DNA from: Clostridiales bacterium | GTDB taxonomy: Bacteria; Bacillota; Clostridia; Peptostreptococcales; T1SED10-28 | Length of the DNA: 13,233 bases | Direction of reading: 5' to 3' | Assembly (NCBI GenBank): GCA_007134725.1 | Contig: SLKF01000090.1 | Location: 1-13,233 of the forward strand | Shown here: positions 98 through 7,624 of the stretch, piece by piece | Position numbering within the stretch: position 1 is the first letter of the stretch | Layout of the letters: every line of letters starts with the position of its first letter | Program-made: the position numbers and the translations under genes | Notes under the pieces: generated by a model | Seen by the model: the letters and a program-made list of their open reading frames with translations, nothing else | Told to the model about the DNA's origin: nothing | Databases searched by the model: none

Positions 98-1192
98 CTA
101 AAGCTGATCTCTTCCAAGTCTGGACAGAACCACATTCACTTCCCCGCCGACAATGACTATAATGCTGCTGATATAGAGCCATAAAAGAACCACCACAATA
201 CTTCCGAGACTTCCATAAACGTTGGAATAATTGGAAAAATTATTGACGTAGAATGAAAATCCTAAAGAGGCAAGCAGCCAAAACACGACGGTGAACAAAG
301 CTCCCCAAAAAACATTTTTGAATTTTAGTTGTTGATTCGGAGCGAATTTATAAAACATCATAAAAAATAAAACCATGATGATAATGGGAATGGGAAACCG
401 GAGCCAACTCCAAAGATCAATAAAATAACCGGAAAGTCCAAAAAAGTCAAAAACATAAGTCCCTAAAATTTCTCCGAAAACGATGAAGAAAAAGGCGGAA
501 AGAATTACTATGGGGACACCGAGGGTGGTTAAAAGTGCCACAGCCTTGACTTGGAAAAAGTTTCGGGTTTCCTCTACGTTGTAAGCGGTATTCACACCTT
601 TGATTAAGGCGTTGGCCCCTTTCAGAGAACTCCAAAGTGCGGCAGCCACACCGAAGGAAAGAAGGGCACCGCTACTACCGGTAAAGACCTCTTCGATGGT
701 ACCAAAAATCAATTCGTGGGCTTCCTCGGGCAATATGCTTTCCAAGGTAAGGATAATTGCTTCATATTCCAAGGGGGTATACTGCAGAACGCTTAGTAGA
801 AAAATAAAGAAAGGGAACAGAGCTAAAAGCAGATAATATGTAGTTTGAGCTCCTAAATCCGGCACCTTATCATTTTTAATATTATCAAATAAAGATTTAA
901 AGAATGTTTTGAAGTCCTCCCTAAAGCTCTGAGGAAGAGTCTGCTCTTCTCCGGAAAAATCAACAGGATCATCAGAATGTTTTTCGGAGGAACCATTTAA
1001 GATTGTATCTGATTTTTTGTGATGGGTTTTTCTTAGATTTTTAGACGCTTTTTGAGGATTTACGATGCGATCCAGGTTTTGTTTAAGATCCAGTACTCTG
1101 AGGATTAATTGGATCAGGATTATAATCAGGACGAAAATTCCTAATAAAAACAGAAACCAAAGCATTCTATCCGGAGAAATGGCAGTAAACAT
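98..1192 (-). CDS. YihY/BrkB family membrane protein with N-terminal extension
   Basis: Polytopic inner-membrane protein of the YihY/virulence factor BrkB family (older 'ribonuclease BN' annotations are regarded as wrong). Its transport or other role is not established. The 364-residue product has an extra N-terminal membrane helix (about 11-34), a charged hydrophilic linker (about 38-95) rich in Lys and Asp/Glu, then the BrkB domain from about residue 100. The family motif region PDLGAQTTYYLLLALFPF is at about 110-128, several further hydrophobic segments follow, and a GGEVNVVLSR-like end closes the domain. Typical family members are nearer 280-300 residues and lack the anchored extension. 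The start is supported by an AGGAAGGA ribosome binding site at 1197-1204. It begins 25 nt downstream of the HTH-TPR regulator gene on the same strand, so the two are probably cotranscribed. Confidence 0.88.
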   Translation of the reverse strand: MFTAISPDRMLWFLFLLGIFVLIIILIQLILRVLDLKQNLDRIVNPQKASKNLRKTHHKKSDTILNGSSEKHSDDPVDFSGEEQTLPQSFREDFKTFFKSLFDNIKNDKVPDLGAQTTYYLLLALFPFFIFLLSVLQYTPLEYEAIILTLESILPEEAHELIFGTIEEVFTGSSGALLSFGVAAALWSSLKGANALIKGVNTAYNVEETRNFFQVKAVALLTTLGVPIVILSAFFFIVFGEILGTYVFDFFGLSGYFIDLWSWLRFPIPIIIMVLFFMMFYKFAPNQQLKFKNVFWGALFTVVFWLLASLGFSFYVNNFSNYSNVYGSLGSIVVVLLWLYISSIIVIVGGEVNVVLSRLGRDQL

Positions 1193-1217: not shown

Positions 1218-2135
1218 CTACAAGTATAGGGGCATTTTAAAAATTTCCCGACAGTTTTCTAATAATTTTGCGGATAATAGTGGATGGCCATAAGCCTTGG
1301 AAAGGCTTATGGCAAGATCAATAGATGTTGAATAATCCTCCTGATCCAGTCGGAATTTGATAATACCCTGATTGTAATACAGGAGATTCAGACCGTTGTA
1401 ATTCCGATTGCTTTGACAGGATGTAATTCCTTCTCTTACCACGGTCAAGGCTTTTTCATATTCCGTGGCCCGGATATAAACCGTGGATAAATTATGGCAT
1501 ATTTTGGGGAAAATTCCATCGTTTTTATCGGAAGAAAGATGACAGAATTCCAAGATTTCCACATAAGCCTTTTCGCGTTGGAGTTTGTTCAGCACAAAGG
1601 CGATATTCATTAGAATTCGAACTTCAAAGGTGGAGTAAACAAAGTCTGAATAGGTTTCCACAGAAAAAGCGGGGATGGTTCTTCGAAGTCCTTCAATCAA
1701 TTCTTCTAAAGCTTTAGAAGGATCGCCCTCTTTCTTATATAATAGCACCGCCTTGGAAAGGTGGATCAGCTGATGAATCAGGACTTTAAAATAGGATTGG
1801 GAGGAATTTTCCAGCAAACTTTCCAGTTCAAGAATTTCTTTGGTTAAGGAATCAATTTCATCCTTATCAAATTTCAGCTCCAGGCGATTGTAGACTTCAT
1901 TGAATAGCAGACTATGATCTATACGATATTGAGAAAATAATAAAAGAAGGTCTTCTTTGTAGAGAGAAGACAGAATTTCCAGGGTTTCAAATTTAGGGAT
2001 GACCTTTCCTCCCTCTAAGCGTCTTAGGGTGGAAGGATTAATCCCGGTTTGTTCATAAACTTCATTTTGACTAAAATTAAACTTTAATCGAATATCTTTT
2101 AATTTACAACCGAAATTGATCAGATTGAAATCCAT
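1218..2135 (-). CDS. HTH-TPR transcriptional regulator, RRNPP (PlcR/Rgg-like) type
   Basis: Cytoplasmic transcription factor of 305 residues. An XRE/HTH_3 DNA-binding domain occupies about residues 8-64: FSQNEVYEQTGINPSTLRRLEGGK covers the recognition helix and the classic 'RxLExGK.xP' turn. The rest is all-helical with TPR-like repeats (about 75-300), for example the ATEYEKALTVVREGI helix pair near 223-237. This layout and length match RRNPP-family receptors such as PlcR, which bind an imported peptide in the TPR pocket. The gene diverges from a small secreted-peptide gene carrying a duplicated octapeptide, which strongly suggests that peptide is its ligand. The start is set by AAAGGAG at 2142-2148, 6 nt before the ATG. 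The regulator could instead be a peptide-independent XRE-TPR repressor. The fold is well supported; peptide sensing is inferred from context. Confidence 0.85.
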   Translation of the reverse strand: MDFNLINFGCKLKDIRLKFNFSQNEVYEQTGINPSTLRRLEGGKVIPKFETLEILSSLYKEDLLLLFSQYRIDHSLLFNEVYNRLELKFDKDEIDSLTKEILELESLLENSSQSYFKVLIHQLIHLSKAVLLYKKEGDPSKALEELIEGLRRTIPAFSVETYSDFVYSTFEVRILMNIAFVLNKLQREKAYVEILEFCHLSSDKNDGIFPKICHNLSTVYIRATEYEKALTVVREGITSCQSNRNYNGLNLLYYNQGIIKFRLDQEDYSTSIDLAISLSKAYGHPLLSAKLLENCREIFKMPLYL

Positions 2136-2359
2136 AGGCGTCTCCTTTGTTGATATTTTTATCTATAGAATATTTACCTATAAAAATGAGTTTAAAACAA
2201 ATTATGGTGAAATTAATGGGGAAGTCATTTTCCATTTGCAATAATCGTGCCAAAATAGGCGCAGAGCACCGCGCATCCATGCCTGCTGTAATTGTAGAAG
2301 GATTATTATATTATAAAATTAAGCAATATTCTAAATAATTATAAAGGAGGCTAGTTCAA
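2136..2359. promoter_or_regulatory. Divergent control region between regulator and peptide genes
   Basis: A 224-nt noncoding interval shared by the divergent regulator and peptide genes. It holds an imperfect dyad, TATAG-N9-CTATA, at 2164-2182, close to the regulator start and a plausible operator, although PlcR boxes proper (TATGNAN4TNCATA) differ from it. It also holds a second inverted repeat at 2215-2223/2228-2236 (AATGG...CCATT, pairing with two G-U pairs as RNA). AT-rich stretches such as TATAAA at 2312-2317 could serve as a -10 element, but no matching -35 is evident. That fits a promoter needing an activator. Plus-strand reading frames in the interval have no ribosome binding site. 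Confidence 0.4.
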
Positions 2360-2560
2360 ATGAAAAGATTTATCGCTGTCAGTATGATCATTACCGGTTT
2401 TTTCCTAGCATTCATTGGTGGGGGGATGGAAATAAACGGTGGAAAAGGGGATGACGGATTGATTGAATGGAACTGTTTACCAATTGAAGAGGAAGTGGCA
2501 GGCAGGGAAGACGACGGTCTGATTGAGTGGAATGACTTTACCGTTGAGGAGTATTCTTAG
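2360..2560 (+). CDS. Secreted peptide-pheromone precursor with duplicated DDGLIEWN
   Basis: A 66-residue precursor I do not recognise by name. The N-terminus is a Sec-type signal: Lys2-Arg3, a hydrophobic core at 4-19, then GGG. The remainder is acidic and contains DDGLIEWN at residues 31-38 and again at 51-58, exactly 20 residues apart. A looser repeat continues to residue 45 and residue 65 (x-x-x-[IV]-E-E). Outside the octapeptide the copies diverge (CLPI versus DFTV), so the conserved core is the likely mature signal or contains it. The start has an excellent AAAGGAGG at 2343-2350, 9 nt from the ATG. It is divergent from an RRNPP-like regulator and 47 nt upstream of an HD-GYP gene with no terminator between. 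Together these say quorum-sensing propeptide. An antimicrobial peptide or RiPP precursor is less likely, since no modification or transport genes lie nearby. Confidence 0.8.
   Translation: MKRFIAVSMIITGFFLAFIGGGMEINGGKGDDGLIEWNCLPIEEEVAGREDDGLIEWNDFTVEEYS
2450..2533 (+). repeat. Two in-frame copies of an 8-codon signal-peptide core
   Basis: Codons 31-38 (2450-2473) and 51-58 (2510-2533) of the peptide gene encode the same octapeptide, with a 60-nt period. Five of the eight codons differ (GAT/GAC, GGA/GGT, TTG/CTG, GAA/GAG, AAC/AAT) and every difference is silent, whereas flanking codons differ in amino acid. This pattern indicates selection on the peptide sequence after an old duplication, not a recent DNA duplication. 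Confidence 0.9.
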
Positions 2561-2607
2561 TAGGGAATATTTGAGTTGCCACATAAAAAGGGAAGGGAGG
2601 AGATTTC

Positions 2608-3369
2608 ATGGGATCTATTATCAAAGAACATAATCATCATCTGAAAGGCGGCTATAGCGGTTTGGTAGATGTTGCTACGGGTAAAACTCATGGGAATGTC
2701 TTCTCTTCCATGACAAAAGAAGGGATCGGGGAACAAGAGACAGTATTAGAGTACCGGGGGATATTGAGCGGAGCTCCAATGGGGATATCTGGGAAACAAA
2801 TTGATGTTAAAATGGGTGTTGGAAGTTTGATTTTAGAACATACATTAGAGACGATTAAAGGCCGCTTTAACGATCAAATCATGCATTTGGAAAACGTAGA
2901 ACGCTATAGCATAGAGATTGGGAAAGCTATGGACTTGAGGGATGATGATTTGACAACTTTAGGTATGGCGGCGAAAATGCATGATATCGGTAAGGCTTTT
3001 ATCGAACAGGGAATTTTAAATAAACCTCAAAAGCTGACGGAAGAGGAAATAGAAGAGATTAAAAAACATCCGGAAATCGGGTATTGGTTACTTAAAGCCG
3101 ATAAAAGATACCGAAAGCTTGCACAGTATGTTCGACATCATCATGAGCATTGGGATGGAAATGGGTATCCCGGGGGATTAAAGGGCGGAGAAATACCACT
3201 GTTTTCACGGATCATTGCCATATCCGATGCCTATGATGCAATGACTACAGAACGGGTGTATCAGAAAACCAAAACTCGGAAGGAGGCCATCCGGGAACTG
3301 ACTCTCTACTCCGGCAGCCAGTTTGATCCGAAAATAGTAAAGATTTTTGTGGAGATGGTGTTAAGTTAA
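2608..3369 (+). CDS. Soluble HD-GYP domain protein (putative c-di-GMP phosphodiesterase)
   Basis: A 253-residue cytoplasmic protein with no membrane segment. Residues 1-85 match no domain I recognise; about 90-253 are an HD-GYP domain. Visible motifs are HDIGK (125-129), HP (154-155), HHHE (177-180), DGNGYPGG (183-190), SDAYDAMT (206-213) and FDP (239-241). HD-GYP enzymes hydrolyse cyclic-di-GMP (some act on cGAMP) with a two- or three-metal site. The position that normally carries the first metal-ligand His, in the 'ExxxHxxR' helix, appears here as Asn96 with Met92 in place of Glu, so activity may be altered. The start has GGGAGGAG at 2595-2602, 5 nt from the ATG. The gene lies 47 nt after the peptide gene with no terminator between and one right after it, so the two form an operon and this protein is the probable output of the peptide system. 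Confidence 0.88.
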   Translation: MGSIIKEHNHHLKGGYSGLVDVATGKTHGNVFSSMTKEGIGEQETVLEYRGILSGAPMGISGKQIDVKMGVGSLILEHTLETIKGRFNDQIMHLENVERYSIEIGKAMDLRDDDLTTLGMAAKMHDIGKAFIEQGILNKPQKLTEEEIEEIKKHPEIGYWLLKADKRYRKLAQYVRHHHEHWDGNGYPGGLKGGEIPLFSRIIAISDAYDAMTTERVYQKTKTRKEAIRELTLYSGSQFDPKIVKIFVEMVLS

Positions 3370-3394
3370 TGCAGCGTATGTGCATCGAAAGGAT

Positions 3395-3436
3395 AAAACT
3401 GCTAAGAACTGAAGGATTCTTCTTAGCAGTTTTTTT
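3395..3436 (+). terminator. Rho-independent terminator after the HD-GYP gene
   Basis: AAAACTGCTAAGAA at 3395-3408 pairs perfectly with 3420-3433 around an 11-nt loop, and a T-run covers 3430-3436. It begins 25 nt after the HD-GYP stop codon and closes the peptide/HD-GYP operon. The following 3437-3510 is A-rich noncoding sequence. Confidence 0.92.
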
Positions 3437-3514
3437 ATGCAAAAAATCGAAAAAGAAAAAGAAAAGTCTGAATATACATAAAAAAAGAACTTTTAGCAAC
3501 GAGAAAGTATTCCT

Positions 3515-4268: not shown

Positions 4269-4667
4269 ATGTTAAATGAGTATGTGAGGACCTATTATCA
4301 AAAAGGACATAATTGAGCGGAGGCTATGTTGCTAGGTGGCAACGAGTATTATAAATTGAATCTGAATGCGGAGACTTTTCGAGTCATGGCCGGTTTCGGT
4401 GGAGGAATGGCTACAGGAGAACTTTGTGGAGCCCTTAGTGGTGGTGTGGCTCTCCTTGGGGTTCTCTTTACTCCGGAACGGGGCTATGATGATGGAAAAG
4501 TAAAAGAGGCGACAAAGGATTTTGTTGAATCCTTTAGAGCACAATTATCTTCTGACAACTGTGAAGTTCTTAAGGATCTGTTCCGGGAAGAAGAAATAAA
4601 ATGTATTCCTGTGGTGGAAAAGGGCGCCGAGATTCTTGAAAAGATCATAAACAAGTATCAAAGGTGA
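4269..4667 (+). CDS. C-GCAxxG-C-C family redox protein, selenocysteine at UGA (Sec16)
   Basis: Read through the TGA at 4314-4316, the frame gives 132 residues of the C-GCAxxG-C-C probable redox protein family (about 140 residues, four conserved Cys, CGAxxG motif). The sequence shows QKGHN-U-AEAM at 11-20, matching the family's G-x-N-C-A-E-A start, then GGGMATGELCGALSGG with Cys53 in CGALSG (53-58), Cys98 in SSDNCEV and Cys112 in IKCIPV. The TGA falls exactly where the first conserved Cys belongs. A small stem-loop begins 10 nt after it, as a bacterial SECIS should. The ATG at 4269 has its own ribosome binding site 15 nt after the previous gene. A conventional gene caller would start at 4326 and lose the first redox residue. 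The exact redox partner is unknown. A nonsense mutation is possible but unlikely given position and hairpin. Confidence 0.87.
4314..4316 (+). other. In-frame UGA, predicted selenocysteine codon
   Basis: TGA in the frame 4269-4667, flanked by codons for GHN and AEA. Conserved coding on both sides matches the family, and the residue normally here is the first invariant Cys. The gene's true stop is a second TGA at 4665-4667, which has no comparable hairpin directly after it. Confidence 0.85.
4327..4344 (+). promoter_or_regulatory. Candidate bSECIS hairpin for Sec insertion
   Basis: GTTGC (4328-4332) pairs with GCAAC (4339-4343), extended by a U-G pair (4327/4344), around the 6-nt loop UAGGUG. 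The apical loop begins 17 nt after the UGA and carries G residues with a following U, as in known bacterial SECIS elements bound by SelB. It lies inside the coding sequence, as in other bacterial selenoprotein genes. Confidence 0.68.
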
Positions 4668-4794: not shown

Positions 4795-6111
4795 TTATTT
4801 CCCCAAAATGGTAGCTTCTTTAAAGAGCACCATAGGAGAATACCCCATATGATAGAATATACTTCGCATAACTTCGTAATGGGTACCGACAGCTTCCACA
4901 TTCTTAAACAGATCGTAGATATTACCCGTAATCATAGCACCTTTTACTTTGCCTTGAAGTTTACCATTTTCAATGAGATAGCCGGAAGAAATATTCAAGG
5001 AGAAATCTCCCCGGTTGATATTTCCTGTGTGGGCCCCCATGACCCCGGTGATTAAAAGCCCTCGTTTGATGCCCTTTAGAATCAGTTCATCCTCCTGATG
5101 ATCCCCCTCAATGATGAGATTCGTATCAAACACCGAAGGGGTGTCTTCGATTTCCTTTGAAAAAAGTGTTCGTTTAAGAGCATTTCCCGTGGGCTCCTGG
5201 GTAAGTTTTTTCCCCTGAGTGATGTTTACAAGGTAGTTCTTCAAAACTCCCTTTTCATAGAGCACCGTATTCTTCGCCGGAGTTCCCTCATCATCAAACA
5301 AGCAGGTATTAACTCCAAAAGCCATTTTGCCGTCATCTCGGATTGTAATTTTATCTGAAAAGAGTTTTTCTCCGATTTTGTCTTTCAAAGGGGAAGTGCC
5401 TTTTAAAACATTACCACCGTTGACCCCTCCTAACACACGAAGCATTAAAGCCCCCATCACATTTCCGGAAAAGATCACCGGCATTTTTTCATTTTCCATG
5501 GTAAGGGTGTTTTTTTCCAGACGGTGGGTTTCAATTAAACGATCAAGATCCCCATCGGAAACCTCCGCCACTTTCCCGGAAGAATATTCCTTGGAACTTC
5601 CCATAAATCCTTTTTCCGTCAAAGTGTATAGAGAAAGAGAAAAATTGGAATAGTCATAGACTTCATTAAAACCGGCACTGTTTAATAAAGAGATTCGTTT
5701 GATATTCTTATGAACTCGAACTCCCGCAGGGATATCCGGTGCTTTTGCTTTTAAGCGTTCGGATAAGTCGAAAGCCATTTTTGTTAAGTCCTCAGTGCTT
5801 AGCTGATCCACCTCGGGAGAAAAAGAAAAAACCATTCGAGGAGGGACGTTGGGAAATGTAATGGCATGGGACTTTTGGTTTTCTAAGGCAATAAGGGCCC
5901 GATCCACTAGGGTATCATCTTCTAAAGAGGTGGATACGGCGGCTCCCATCAGACCGTTTTTTGTAAGCCTTAAGGCGACTTCCCGCTTTTTATCGGCATT
6001 AATTCCTTTGAGTTTCCCCAGTTTTATATCCACAGAAGTACTGTGAACATCCCGCTTGTAGACTTCGCCACCATCGGCTGCAGCCAAGGCTTTATTAAGT
6101 AATTGTCGCAT
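4795..6111 (-). CDS. tldE: TldE/PmbA-type subunit of the TldD/TldE metalloprotease
   Basis: A 438-residue cytoplasmic protein of the peptidase U62 family. TldE (PmbA) pairs with TldD to form a heterodimeric zinc protease; in E. coli the pair completes microcin B17 processing and degrades CcdA. The sequence shows the family's C-terminal signatures: FDDEGTPA at 272-279, followed by the TVLYEKGVLKNYL strand, and GDFSLNISSGYLIENG at 368-383. As expected for TldE there is no HExxxH zinc site; that residue set is in the upstream partner. The start has AGGAGG at 6120-6125, overlapping the end of tldD. Only one nucleotide separates the tldD stop from this ATG, indicating translational coupling. Length is normal for the family. 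It ends just before a convergent terminator. No modified-peptide precursor is seen close by, so the substrate is open. Confidence 0.93.
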   Translation of the reverse strand: MRQLLNKALAAADGGEVYKRDVHSTSVDIKLGKLKGINADKKREVALRLTKNGLMGAAVSTSLEDDTLVDRALIALENQKSHAITFPNVPPRMVFSFSPEVDQLSTEDLTKMAFDLSERLKAKAPDIPAGVRVHKNIKRISLLNSAGFNEVYDYSNFSLSLYTLTEKGFMGSSKEYSSGKVAEVSDGDLDRLIETHRLEKNTLTMENEKMPVIFSGNVMGALMLRVLGGVNGGNVLKGTSPLKDKIGEKLFSDKITIRDDGKMAFGVNTCLFDDEGTPAKNTVLYEKGVLKNYLVNITQGKKLTQEPTGNALKRTLFSKEIEDTPSVFDTNLIIEGDHQEDELILKGIKRGLLITGVMGAHTGNINRGDFSLNISSGYLIENGKLQGKVKGAMITGNIYDLFKNVEAVGTHYEVMRSIFYHMGYSPMVLFKEATILGK

Positions 6112-6112
6112 A

Positions 6113-7465
6113 TTACTGTCCTCCTATTCCCATATTTTTGATCTTGATCGGTGCGGAGCCTTTCCCTGACTGAATTAGAATTTGTCCGCCTTTTCCGCAT
6201 CCTCCGGCCTTGGAAAAAGTAACTTGCTCGCCGACCATTTCGATGTTCTTTAAAGTGGTGAAGAGATGTCCCGTCAGGGCCAGATCCCGAACCATGCCGG
6301 TAATTCTACCCTTTTCAATACGGTATCCACCCTGTACGGCGAAGGTAAAGGTTTCTCCGCTGGTTTGTCCACCGGCAGACCCGAATAGATACATTCCATC
6401 ATCAATAGAGGTGATCATATCATTTAGGCTGCTTTTGCCTTGATCAATATAAATATTGCCCATACGAACGATGGGGGTGAATCCAAAATTCTTTGCCCTG
6501 GCATGTCCCGTAGGTTCTTCATCCATAAAGCTGGCACTTTCCAGGGAGTGAAGACGTCCCCTTAGTTTCCCGTCTTTGATTAATGAGACCGGACGGGCTT
6601 TCGTACCTTCATGATCATACACGTAACTTCCGGGATGACCTAACCGGGTAGGGTCATCGATTACATTAAAGTTTTCCATTGCAAAGGTGGCACCCAGTGC
6701 CATGGTGTTGGCCAGGGTTTCATTCCCGATTAAATTATCGGCTTCACTGAGATGACCGAAGGCTTCGTGAATAAAAAGACCACCCACATCACTGTCTAAA
6801 ATCACATCATAATTTCCACCTTTAACCGGTTCAGCGTCTAAAAGATCAATAGTTTGATCAACTTTATCTAATACATCATATTCTTTGTCTAAAAGCTCAC
6901 CATAATCCTCGTTACCACCGAAGGATAGCCGGGTAAGCTGAGTGATCTCTCCCCGCTTAGCGGTAATACGAAAGCTCATGCCGCAGATCAGTTCTTCTTG
7001 TTGCACCTCCGCCCCATGATTGTTTAAAATTAATGTGTCGGTAAATTGCTCATAGTATTGGGACTCCAAGTCTACAATTTCGGAGTTGTTTAAAATCAGT
7101 TTCCGGTATTTTTCCAGCAGCTCTTTTTTCTCGGCAATCGGAAGAGCTCGTGGGTCCGCTTTGGGAGAAACGGTTATATGGGCCACATTTGTAGGAATCC
7201 GTTTCAGCTTTTCTTTGCCCGGGTTTAAGTCGCTGGCGGTTTTGGCTTCCTGAAAGGCCAGGGTGATATCCTTGGGATCTGTGAAGGCGAAGCTTCCAAA
7301 TCCTCCACCGGAAAGCACACGAACATTTCCACCGCTCTTTTTAACTATGGATACTTCATCAATTTCCTCCATGCCGCCTTTGATGGTGGTATGGGAAAAA
7401 TCTTGAAAACGTAGGTCACAAAAATCTCTTATGAGTAACGCTTCTTTGAAATACTGTTTATCCAT
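6113..7465 (-). CDS. tldD: TldD-type catalytic subunit of the TldD/TldE metalloprotease
   Basis: A 450-residue cytoplasmic zinc peptidase subunit. The metal site HEAFGH (233-238, HExxxH) is followed by the family's SEAD, the third ligand is probably Cys423 in GGCGKGGQ (421-428), and GSYVYDHEGTKA lies at 279-290. The frame is open further upstream to an ATG at 7528, but AAAGGAGG at 7472-7479 lies 6 nt before the ATG at 7465. The added 21 residues also resemble untranslated leader, so I start at 7465. It is the first gene of a tldD-tldE operon, driven by an extended -10 promoter near 7519-7527. With TldE it would degrade unfolded or small peptides entering the central cavity of the heterodimer. 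Confidence 0.93.
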   Translation of the reverse strand: MDKQYFKEALLIRDFCDLRFQDFSHTTIKGGMEEIDEVSIVKKSGGNVRVLSGGGFGSFAFTDPKDITLAFQEAKTASDLNPGKEKLKRIPTNVAHITVSPKADPRALPIAEKKELLEKYRKLILNNSEIVDLESQYYEQFTDTLILNNHGAEVQQEELICGMSFRITAKRGEITQLTRLSFGGNEDYGELLDKEYDVLDKVDQTIDLLDAEPVKGGNYDVILDSDVGGLFIHEAFGHLSEADNLIGNETLANTMALGATFAMENFNVIDDPTRLGHPGSYVYDHEGTKARPVSLIKDGKLRGRLHSLESASFMDEEPTGHARAKNFGFTPIVRMGNIYIDQGKSSLNDMITSIDDGMYLFGSAGGQTSGETFTFAVQGGYRIEKGRITGMVRDLALTGHLFTTLKNIEMVGEQVTFSKAGGCGKGGQILIQSGKGSAPIKIKNMGIGGQ

Positions 7466-7518
7466 CTTTTTCCTCCTTTTGCCCGGGAAATATTCCGGAC
7501 CACTATTAATCCGATTTA

Positions 7519-7527
7519 ATTGTATCA
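7519..7527 (-). promoter_or_regulatory. Extended -10 promoter element for tldD-tldE
   Basis: On the minus strand TGATACAAT gives an extended -10 (TG-N-TACAAT), about 55 nt before the tldD start. No good -35 is present 17 nt upstream, which is tolerable for an extended -10. It sits in the 324-nt divergent interval between tldD and hflX. Confidence 0.45.
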
Positions 7528-7624
7528 CGGCTATATATTTAGGGCCAGGAAATATTTGAAAACATTAAAATATTATAAAATTTTCCAATAACAGCAAAAA
7601 AGATCGAAGTGAGGATTTTCTTTA

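Follow-up and report, generated by a model that had tools for sequence, protein, structure and literature searches.

The window, i.e. the whole stretch of 13,233 nt analysed here, is one contig of an assembly from the genus Isachenkonia; its features of interest are listed in Table 1. The regulator gene and the 66-aa gene are divergently oriented, and the HD-GYP gene follows 47 nt past the latter on the same strand. An earlier note, made from the letters alone, had read the locus in this way (HTH-TPR regulator, divergent 66-codon repeat gene, HD-GYP gene, 47-nt gap, one terminator), and open reading frames, Pfam matches and hairpin folding agree with it. The hairpin within positions 3396-3440 folds at -15 kcal/mol, a value equalled by 0 of 200 shuffles, and is not in the output of a pattern scan for terminators; between the propeptide and HD-GYP genes no terminator was found. 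The suggestion that the BrkB gene may belong to the same unit fits the gene order within the genus, where it adjoins the regulator in all four genomes that contain the regulator (4/4), but the gene was seen in none of the other fetched loci. BrkB may be part of the cassette, a point that we leave undecided.

Table 1. Features of the regulator-propeptide-HD-GYP locus in the window.
Feature	Position	Strand	Basis
HTH-TPR receptor/regulator, PlcR-like, 305 aa	1218..2135	-	ORF, Pfam, structure
Propeptide-like gene, 66 aa: basic start, hydrophobic stretch, acidic tail	2360..2560	+	10 database homologues; profile match in 5/5 genus genomes
Putative pheromone repeat 1, DDGLIEWN, residues 31-38	2450..2473	+	Repeat comparison
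Putative pheromone repeat 2, DDGLIEWN, residues 51-58	2510..2533	+	Repeat comparison
Stand-alone HD-GYP domain protein, 253 aa, predicted cyclic-dinucleotide phosphodiesterase	2608..3369	+	Pfam, 4mcw/5z7c matches, motifs
Intrinsic terminator of the propeptide/HD-GYP operon	3396..3435	+	Hairpin folding versus shuffles
Candidate operator, inverted repeat CGCGCATCCATGCCTG, perfect core GCATNNATGC, 5/7 pairs overall	2270..2285	.	Conservation, position
Weak -35 element CTGTAA, abuts candidate operator	2286..2291	+	3/6 matches
-10 element TATTAT, 17-nt spacer	2309..2314	+	5/6 matches; TTATAT there in 5/5 genus sequences
Propeptide Shine-Dalgarno AAAGGAGG	2343..2350	+	Present in 5/5 genus sequences
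BrkB/YihY-family membrane protein, starts 25 nt after regulator	98..1192	-	Domain match; gene order

The regulator and its family

The regulator matches HTH_3 with 37.4 bits (cut-off 23) and TPR_2/TPR_8 weakly; its match to RNPP_C (PF18768), at 18.8 bits, lies under the curated cut-off of 26.5, and an NCBIfam scan returned no family name for either regulator or propeptide. The claim of an RRNPP-like receptor gains from the modelled fold: three PlcR structures rank first in a structure search, with an alignment that spans both HTH and TPR regions at 16% identity. PlcR surfaced by structure only; the sequence-profile search against the PDB, of which 60 of 83 matches were listed, brought up chiefly designed TPRs and XRE domains, with ComR as the sole RRNPP protein recognised among the matches listed. 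RRNPP/RRNPPA receptors are described as cytosolic TPR proteins of 250-500 aa, often with an N-terminal HTH, and the regulator has 305 aa and an HTH_3 domain above the cut-off. It is PlcR-like, and not filed as a member of the PlcR subfamily proper.

Homologs of the regulator were found in four of the five genus genomes; in the fifth, the locus runs into a contig end. A broader search matched 23 of 60 genomes, many of these weakly, and in one set of 22 loci three (L050-L052) match only over a short HTH stretch. In the literature on RRNPP systems in the relatives' genera, PMC10075063 is the only work among the matches listed that names RRNPP. Its excerpted text reports 21 novel candidate RRNPP subfamilies, and the receptor family of our regulator may already be among them.

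Propeptide repeats and neighbouring mini-genes

For the 66-aa protein there is no Pfam family, and its signal-peptide-like basic start and hydrophobic stretch were judged by hydropathy only. The two DDGLIEWN copies have the same protein sequence although 5 of their 24 bases differ, so that their likeness seems to be maintained by selection and not to stem from a recent duplication. An exact 6-aa repeat arises in 8 per 100000 shuffles of the tail, and all ten database homologs found still have the core DGL[IF]EWN at both places, which rules out a lone artefact or chance repeat. Across the five genus genomes, the repeat codons show 16 replacing and 63 silent-only differences in 160 codon pairs, the leader codons 110 and 45 in 280. 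In two genomes (G001 and G002), whose regulators are sisters in the tree (96/98), isoleucine is changed to phenylalanine in both repeats. A viral origin was considered and rejected: of 42 candidate stretches in viral contigs, 0 were confirmed. With 66 aa and a distance of 224 nt from the regulator, the gene lies inside the range for propeptide genes given in the excerpts of PMC10075063 (10-100 aa, at a distance of -60 to 400 bp).

The presence of a propeptide-like gene extends well beyond the genus. Before filtering, the receptor profile matched 102 open reading frames, a number that counts redundant loci as well; after duplicates, matches of 60 bits or less and frames with a missing N-terminus had been dropped, 65 relatives with 250 nt or more upstream were left. 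Beside 40 of these 65 regulators lies a divergent mini-gene that is signal-peptide-like and preceded by a Shine-Dalgarno sequence, versus 3 of 160 control genes (frames of at least 200 aa from the same loci, with at least 300 nt upstream), by criteria that were set after inspection of some loci and applied identically to the controls. The 65 are related rather than independent, and the four genus orthologs are counted four times; without them, the count is 36 of 61. The remaining 25 of the 65 fail the test. The count includes a few doubtful mini-genes (L094, L109, L039, L034), while real-looking ones were missed at L038 and at L100, the latter of which had been excluded because of an overlap. 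The test that the earlier note had set against its own reading, namely relatives consistently lacking an adjacent peptide gene, thus gave the opposite outcome.

Of the 41 tails, 25 contain the motif [DEN][DEG][DGE]x(0,1)hydrophobic, versus 22% of shuffled tails; 16 lack it as written, several of which carry a DIP or DVP variant. Tandem motif copies occur in seven of the 41 (the four genus orthologs, L040, L100 and L117), and the tail at L038 contains six complete copies and a seventh that is cut. These data also bear on another view of the 66-aa protein, as a secreted or membrane protein with a role of its own (cell-surface, bacteriocin-like or toxin-like) next to an HTH-TPR protein that senses another thing. 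The tails without the shared motif would fit this, as would the conserved NDFTxEEY past the second repeat, which suggests constraint beyond the octapeptide. We nevertheless consider it very improbable, given the recurrence of signal-peptide-like mini-genes beside PlcR-like regulators, the acidic motifs, their tandem repetition and the parallel residue change in both repeats.

Candidate operator and promoter

Among 41 loci (the 40 with a mini-gene, and L100), 23 have a 16-bp inverted repeat with 6-7 of 7 pairs at 64-86 nt before the propeptide start. In 200 shuffles, the mean number of loci with a repeat at the same place is 2.8 and the maximum 8, and 11 of 208 control genes have one; perfect repeats occur at 9 of the 41 loci versus 0 of the 208 controls. 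The window and three further loci (L002, L003, L004) are outside these 23. The window's own repeat has only five of seven pairs, and 98% of shuffles do as well; its pairing is unremarkable, and the candidate operator there rests on conservation and position. A 21-bp form at 2268-2288 occurs with 0-1 mismatches only at the cassette locus, in all five genus genomes. A wider regulon reached through this form was considered and rejected: the other hits of the genome-wide search, which covered the genus-specific 21-bp form, have 3 mismatches and number three (G004 has two, G000 one), all inside open reading frames.

Over the 23 loci, the more alike two recognition helices are in sequence, the more alike are their operators (Mantel r 0.52, p 0.0004; partial p 0.0002); TPR identity shows no such relation to the operators (r 0.10, p 0.16). 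A pattern linking D/E in the helix with G/A in the operator was noticed afterwards in the list of the 23 loci.

What is harder to read is the sign of control. The dyad is centred at about -44, upstream of the -35 and -10 elements and not over them; at 17 of 26 loci it is -44, a clustering that is partly built in because the search was confined to -3..+5 nt of the dyad end. In place, the 16-bp candidate dyad of the window resembles the PlcR box, described in the excerpts of PMC2464732 as a 16-bp palindrome before the sigma-A -35; its sequence is different. Such a position is activator-like, and the -35 of the window is weak. At four loci (L033, L005, L039, L040), however, a good -35 (TTGAAA, 5/6 matches) lies beside the dyad, so that an activator may not be needed there. 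The regulator could hence be a repressor relieved by the peptide, as in TprA/PhrA, rather than an activator like PlcR/PapR. We regard this as a real possibility, if short of an even chance; it concerns the same network and is a sub-question of the preferred reading, not exclusive of it. Of the proposal that the regulator controls the operon, the part that stands is a candidate operator at the right place; the control itself is inferred.

The HD-GYP gene and a proposed quorum-sensing cassette

The HD-GYP protein matches HD_5 with 121.8 bits (cut-off 27.2) as well as the structures 4mcw and 5z7c, and was aligned to 4mcw. The HD, H, HH and GYP motifs are present in six of six cassette members, and in L002 Asn replaces the Asp of HHE-x2-DG before GxGYP. 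The family signature over the HD_5 domain is thus present, and hydrolysis of c-di-GMP or cGAMP is predicted. In all five genus genomes the gene follows the propeptide at the locus, and I. alkalipeptolytica possesses a second, diverged regulator-propeptide-HD-GYP cassette (L110), in which an unassigned 104-aa open reading frame lies between propeptide and HD-GYP. Together with the regulator in four of five genomes, this favours the proposed three-part unit. In 393 genomes, with at most 6 candidates scored per genome, the HD-GYP search gave six matches of at least 250 bits, all inside such cassettes; the remaining eight reach 175-180 bits in frames of 788-1092 aa.

Outside the genus, no HD-GYP partner was found in the fetched loci (flanks mostly 1.5-4 kb), and the idea of HD-GYP as a family-wide partner was rejected on this basis; the downstream genes there differ. 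A search for homologs beside small secreted genes and HD-GYP genes, as the earlier note had suggested, therefore bears out the first association, and the second in Isachenkonia only. This restriction would suit a true RRNPP pair in which HD-GYP is a passenger or secondary recruit and the main targets lie elsewhere, as for PlcR. Yet the linkage in every genus genome across a short gap, with the only terminator found after HD-GYP, the diverged second cassette with an HD-GYP of its own and the confinement of the near-exact operator form to the locus make this unlikely.

The genus genomes contain 8-25 GGDEF and 2-11 c-di-GMP-I riboswitch matches each. SBP_bac_5 matches number 3-9 per genome in all five, and such proteins may serve the proposed import of the peptide.

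A quorum-sensing pathway with an HD-GYP phosphodiesterase as its last step is known from the Rpf/DSF system (RpfG) of Gram-negative bacteria, which has a fatty-acid signal and a two-component relay and controls HD-GYP by phosphorylation. In the cassette, by contrast, control of HD-GYP is apparently transcriptional. The earlier note knew of no described system that pairs the three parts, and neither did we find one among the papers listed on RRNPP with HD-GYP or c-di-GMP, or on quorum peptides in Firmicutes; the one paper on RRNPP with HD-GYP concerns a phage protein. PlcR/PapR of the B. cereus group, the best structural match, likewise combines HTH and TPR with a propeptide under the regulator's control; excerpts of PMC2464732 list 45 controlled genes, including one GGDEF protein, and 28 active boxes. 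Here, in contrast, the propeptide is divergent, there is one site per genome, and the proposed output is an HD-GYP protein inside the peptide operon. Two works on the PlcR regulon and c-di-GMP gave no direct link in their excerpted text. TprA/PhrA of S. pneumoniae involves a PlcR homolog, an oppositely oriented gene for a Sec-exported peptide and import by oligopeptide permease, but has a lanthionine-peptide locus among its outputs, with no HD-GYP in the excerpts of PMC7595303. In clostridia, QssR of C. saccharoperbutylacetonicum represents RRNPP systems that act on motility and sporulation (PMC7206700, excerpts); excerpts of PMC12700828 assign it to the nine-TPR clan B, and the main text of PMC7206700 names c-di-GMP 0 times. 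RstA of C. difficile, likewise an RRNPP regulator, binds its own promoter at an imperfect inverted repeat and affects motility, but its cognate peptide is hypothesised, it binds several promoters, and excerpts of PMC6414698 mention no HD-GYP partner. For Rap3T/Phr3T and Rap105/Phr105, excerpts of PMC11343458 describe propeptides in which the pheromone unit is duplicated and which give rise to several mature pheromones. Unlike the present pair, these systems are phage-borne and belong to the Rap subfamily, which lost the HTH (PMC12700828, excerpts).

Based on gene order, conservation, predicted fold, operator position, helix-operator covariation and cassette linkage, all at the level of sequence, we favour, largely in line with the earlier note, an RRNPP-type peptide quorum-sensing cassette with c-di-GMP output, with a probability of roughly three in four. 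Export, maturation, peptide binding, the sign of control, catalysis and phenotype are steps that we infer. After export of the 66-aa precursor, trimming would release a short acidic peptide derived from its DDGLIEWN repeats; an oligopeptide permease would carry this peptide back into the cell, where it would bind in the TPR pocket of the PlcR-like regulator. The regulator would sit at the 16-bp inverted repeat directly next to the -35 of the propeptide promoter and, once peptide-bound, raise transcription, either as an activator or by lifting repression. The peptide would thereby promote its own production, and the HD-GYP enzyme would be induced along with it. Since this enzyme would lower c-di-GMP, crowding would move cells out of the sessile state that goes with high c-di-GMP.

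On balance, we lean towards a clostridial receptor family with modular outputs, in which acidic, sometimes multi-copy pheromones are combined with a divergent promoter, whose -35 directly adjoins a 16-bp operator, and with a helix-operator code able to insulate parallel channels. The Isachenkonia module would have captured a sensorless HD-GYP protein, making c-di-GMP turnover a dedicated output, and one cell may run two channels: G002 pairs DDGLFEWN with a GCATNNATGC-type operator and GERDIPALFS with CCCGACTNNAATCGGG.

The links between Gram-positive peptide quorum sensing and c-di-GMP that we found elsewhere are indirect, i.e. the GGDEF protein of the PlcR regulon (PMC2464732, excerpts) and, in the opposite direction, the raised plcR transcripts at high c-di-GMP in B. 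thuringiensis (PMC5816809, excerpts). With a predicted phosphodiesterase inside the pheromone operon, density could set c-di-GMP directly. The family gives predicted peptide-receptor-operator trios in anaerobic Clostridia, and the cultured I. alkalipeptolytica, with its two parallel cassettes, would make pheromone specificity and insulation approachable with short synthetic peptides.

Cassette layout and predicted propeptide

The window is the entire contig C55 of a 2.06-Mb source assembly that is about 80% complete. The divergent regulator, 66-codon gene, HD-GYP gene, 47-nt gap and terminator described in the earlier note were all recovered. The BrkB gene adjoins the regulator gene in all four Isachenkonia-genus genomes that contain the regulator.

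Features of the cassette and its surroundings in the window
Feature	Coordinates	Strand	Remarks
BrkB-family gene	98-1192	-	starts 25 nt past regulator
HTH-TPR regulator, 305 aa	1218-2135	-	gene calls and Pfam
Second conserved block, GCAATAATCGTGCCAAAAT	2238-2256		upstream of operator
Candidate operator	2270-2285		
Propeptide-like mini-gene, 66 aa	2360-2560	+	224 nt from regulator
HD-GYP gene, 253 aa	2608-3369	+	47 nt past mini-gene
Terminator hairpin		+	13-bp stem; after HD-GYP gene
C_GCAxxG_C_C gene	4269-4667	+	in-frame TGA at 4314-4316
TldD/PmbA-type metallopeptidase pair	4795-7528	-	adjacent genes

The mini-gene product begins with basic residues, continues with a hydrophobic stretch and ends in an acidic tail in which DDGLIEWN occurs twice. 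A search of 5.8 billion proteins returned ten homologues of 66-67 aa; all ten retain the core DGL[IF]EWN in both copies. The window's two copies show silent differences only, and the sister genomes G001 and G002 (support 96/98) carry DDGLFEWN in both, as if both copies had to fit one receptor pocket. TldD/PmbA-type metallopeptidases, encoded nearby, are of a kind able to process small peptides.

The C_GCAxxG_C_C gene extends upstream of its first ATG through the TGA, which sits where the first Cys of the family is expected. With this codon read as U, the frame reaches 90.1 bits, against a cut-off of 47.4, for TIGR01909, C-GCAxxG-C-C family (seleno)protein, and judging from the sequence the product is likely a selenoprotein. 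A tRNA-Sec exceeds the cut-off in three of the five genus genomes, but not in the window's own, 80% complete genome; a hairpin 3' of the TGA lacks significance, since 18 of 200 shuffles do equally well.

Regulator relatives and candidate operators

The search for relatives of the regulator drew on 60 genomes (23 matched at E 0.001, many only weakly), 393 genomes from the order (31 matched at E 1e-15), 20 fetched stretches, and 22 loci in named genome records (Tissierella, Catonella, Fusibacter, Anaerococcus and others). The earlier note had raised the question of whether such relatives consistently lack an adjacent peptide gene. They do not: 65 regulators had sufficient sequence upstream, and 40 of these face, at 20-300 nt, a divergent mini-gene that is preceded by a Shine-Dalgarno sequence and has a signal-peptide-like product, compared with 3 of 160 control genes; by the same criteria 25, Anaerococcus relatives among them, have none.

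Propeptide tails vary (e.g. GDGEIEWLAY, EDDGMIDWHSY, GEDIPRLYS, GEEDIPSLYS, EDDVPRIFS), and an acidic start with a hydrophobic core is common to many. The motif [DEN][DEG][DGE]x(0,1)hydrophobic is present in 25 of 41 tails, against 22% of shuffled tails, and DIP or DVP variants of it occur in several of the remaining 16. Visual inspection places an AxA-type cleavage site immediately before the acidic segment in several propeptides. Multi-copy tails include GEEDMIWLH (four copies) and GEDDLIRLH; in L038, where the propeptide occupies 1-280 and diverges from a regulator at 393, the latter forms six complete tandem units and a seventh cut by the contig end. The L117 propeptide, likewise divergent, contains GDEDIPGVW twice plus another acidic segment, a separate case of a duplicated pheromone.

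In the intergenic alignment of the five genus genomes, the conserved blocks are a dyad, the -10, the ribosome-binding site and one upstream block; GCAATAATCGTGCCAAAAT is largely kept in all five. At 0-1 mismatches, the dyad form CAGCAGGCATNNATGCRCGGT occurs once per genome, at the cassette locus, in 5/5; a reversed-pattern control yielded zero sites in these genomes, and three further similar sites, with three mismatches each, all lie within open reading frames. Across the family, 23 of 41 loci have a 7+2+7 bp inverted repeat with six or seven pairs at 64-86 nt ahead of the propeptide start (shuffle mean 2.8, maximum 8; control genes 11/208), and perfect repeats were found in 9/41 loci versus 0/208 control genes. 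The repeat frequently abuts the -35, its centre lying near -44 in 17/26, a position partly built into the search. Operator similarity tracks how alike the recognition helices are (r 0.52, p 0.0004; partial p 0.0002), but does not follow similarity of the TPR part (r 0.10, p 0.16). In a pattern noted after the test, helix D accompanies a G at operator position 4 in 14/15 cases and helix E an A in 4/5. Of the evidence that these regulators would bind these sites, this covariation is the strongest. Because the window dyad itself is imperfect (5/7 pairs, equalled by 98% of shuffles), conservation and position carry the operator claim there.

Proposed HD-GYP output and relation to known systems

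The literature already describes an RRNPP peptide gene oriented opposite to its receptor gene, as in our cassette (TprA/PhrA; PMC7595303), duplicated pheromones (PMC11343458), and, for PlcR, a 16-bp palindromic box ahead of the sigma-A -35, as well as one GGDEF protein within the regulon (PMC2464732). The candidate clusters of PMC10075063 may include this receptor family. In the literature searched, mostly at listing level, no description of an RRNPP receptor paired with an HD-GYP gene was found, in keeping with the earlier note, which knew no system pairing the three parts.

In other genera the gene after the propeptide differs: radical SAM in loci L105 and L039, DUF6765 in L042, and no close co-directional gene in others. 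In L039:970-3884, a propeptide-like ORF precedes genes for radical SAM and ABC transporter proteins, a possible peptide-modification cluster adjoining the same receptor type.

Within the genus, propeptide is followed by HD-GYP in all five genomes. The signature motifs HD, H, HH and GYP are all present in the HD-GYP protein, which aligns to the PDB phosphodiesterases 4mcw and 5z7c. A search of 393 genomes (E 1e-50, at most six candidates scored per genome) gave, among candidates scored, 14 matches in 10 genomes. Six reach at least 250 bits, each within a propeptide cassette; the other eight (175-180 bits) all lie in frames of 788-1092 aa, at least three of which also match GGDEF. The sixth cassette is a second one in G002, the Isachenkonia alkalipeptolytica genome (locus L110), ordered regulator, propeptide ending GERDIPALFSYEVEK, unassigned 104-aa ORF and HD-GYP; this cassette has a dyad of its own, CCCGACTCCAATCGGG. 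The sensorless HD-GYP therefore appears tied to the regulator-propeptide wiring.

The basis in sequence is architecture, conservation, predicted fold, a promoter-linked dyad, covariation and cassette linkage. We regard a receptor-pheromone pair as highly probable, and give the whole chain, including c-di-GMP output, a probability of roughly three in four. The propeptide would be secreted and trimmed, and the peptide re-imported and bound by the regulator, which would control propeptide/HD-GYP expression, probably by raising it; the HD-GYP protein would act catalytically. With 8-25 GGDEF matches in each genome and 2-11 to the c-di-GMP-I riboswitch, the genus very probably uses c-di-GMP signalling. 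The HD-GYP domain would have been captured as an output of the regulator-propeptide module.
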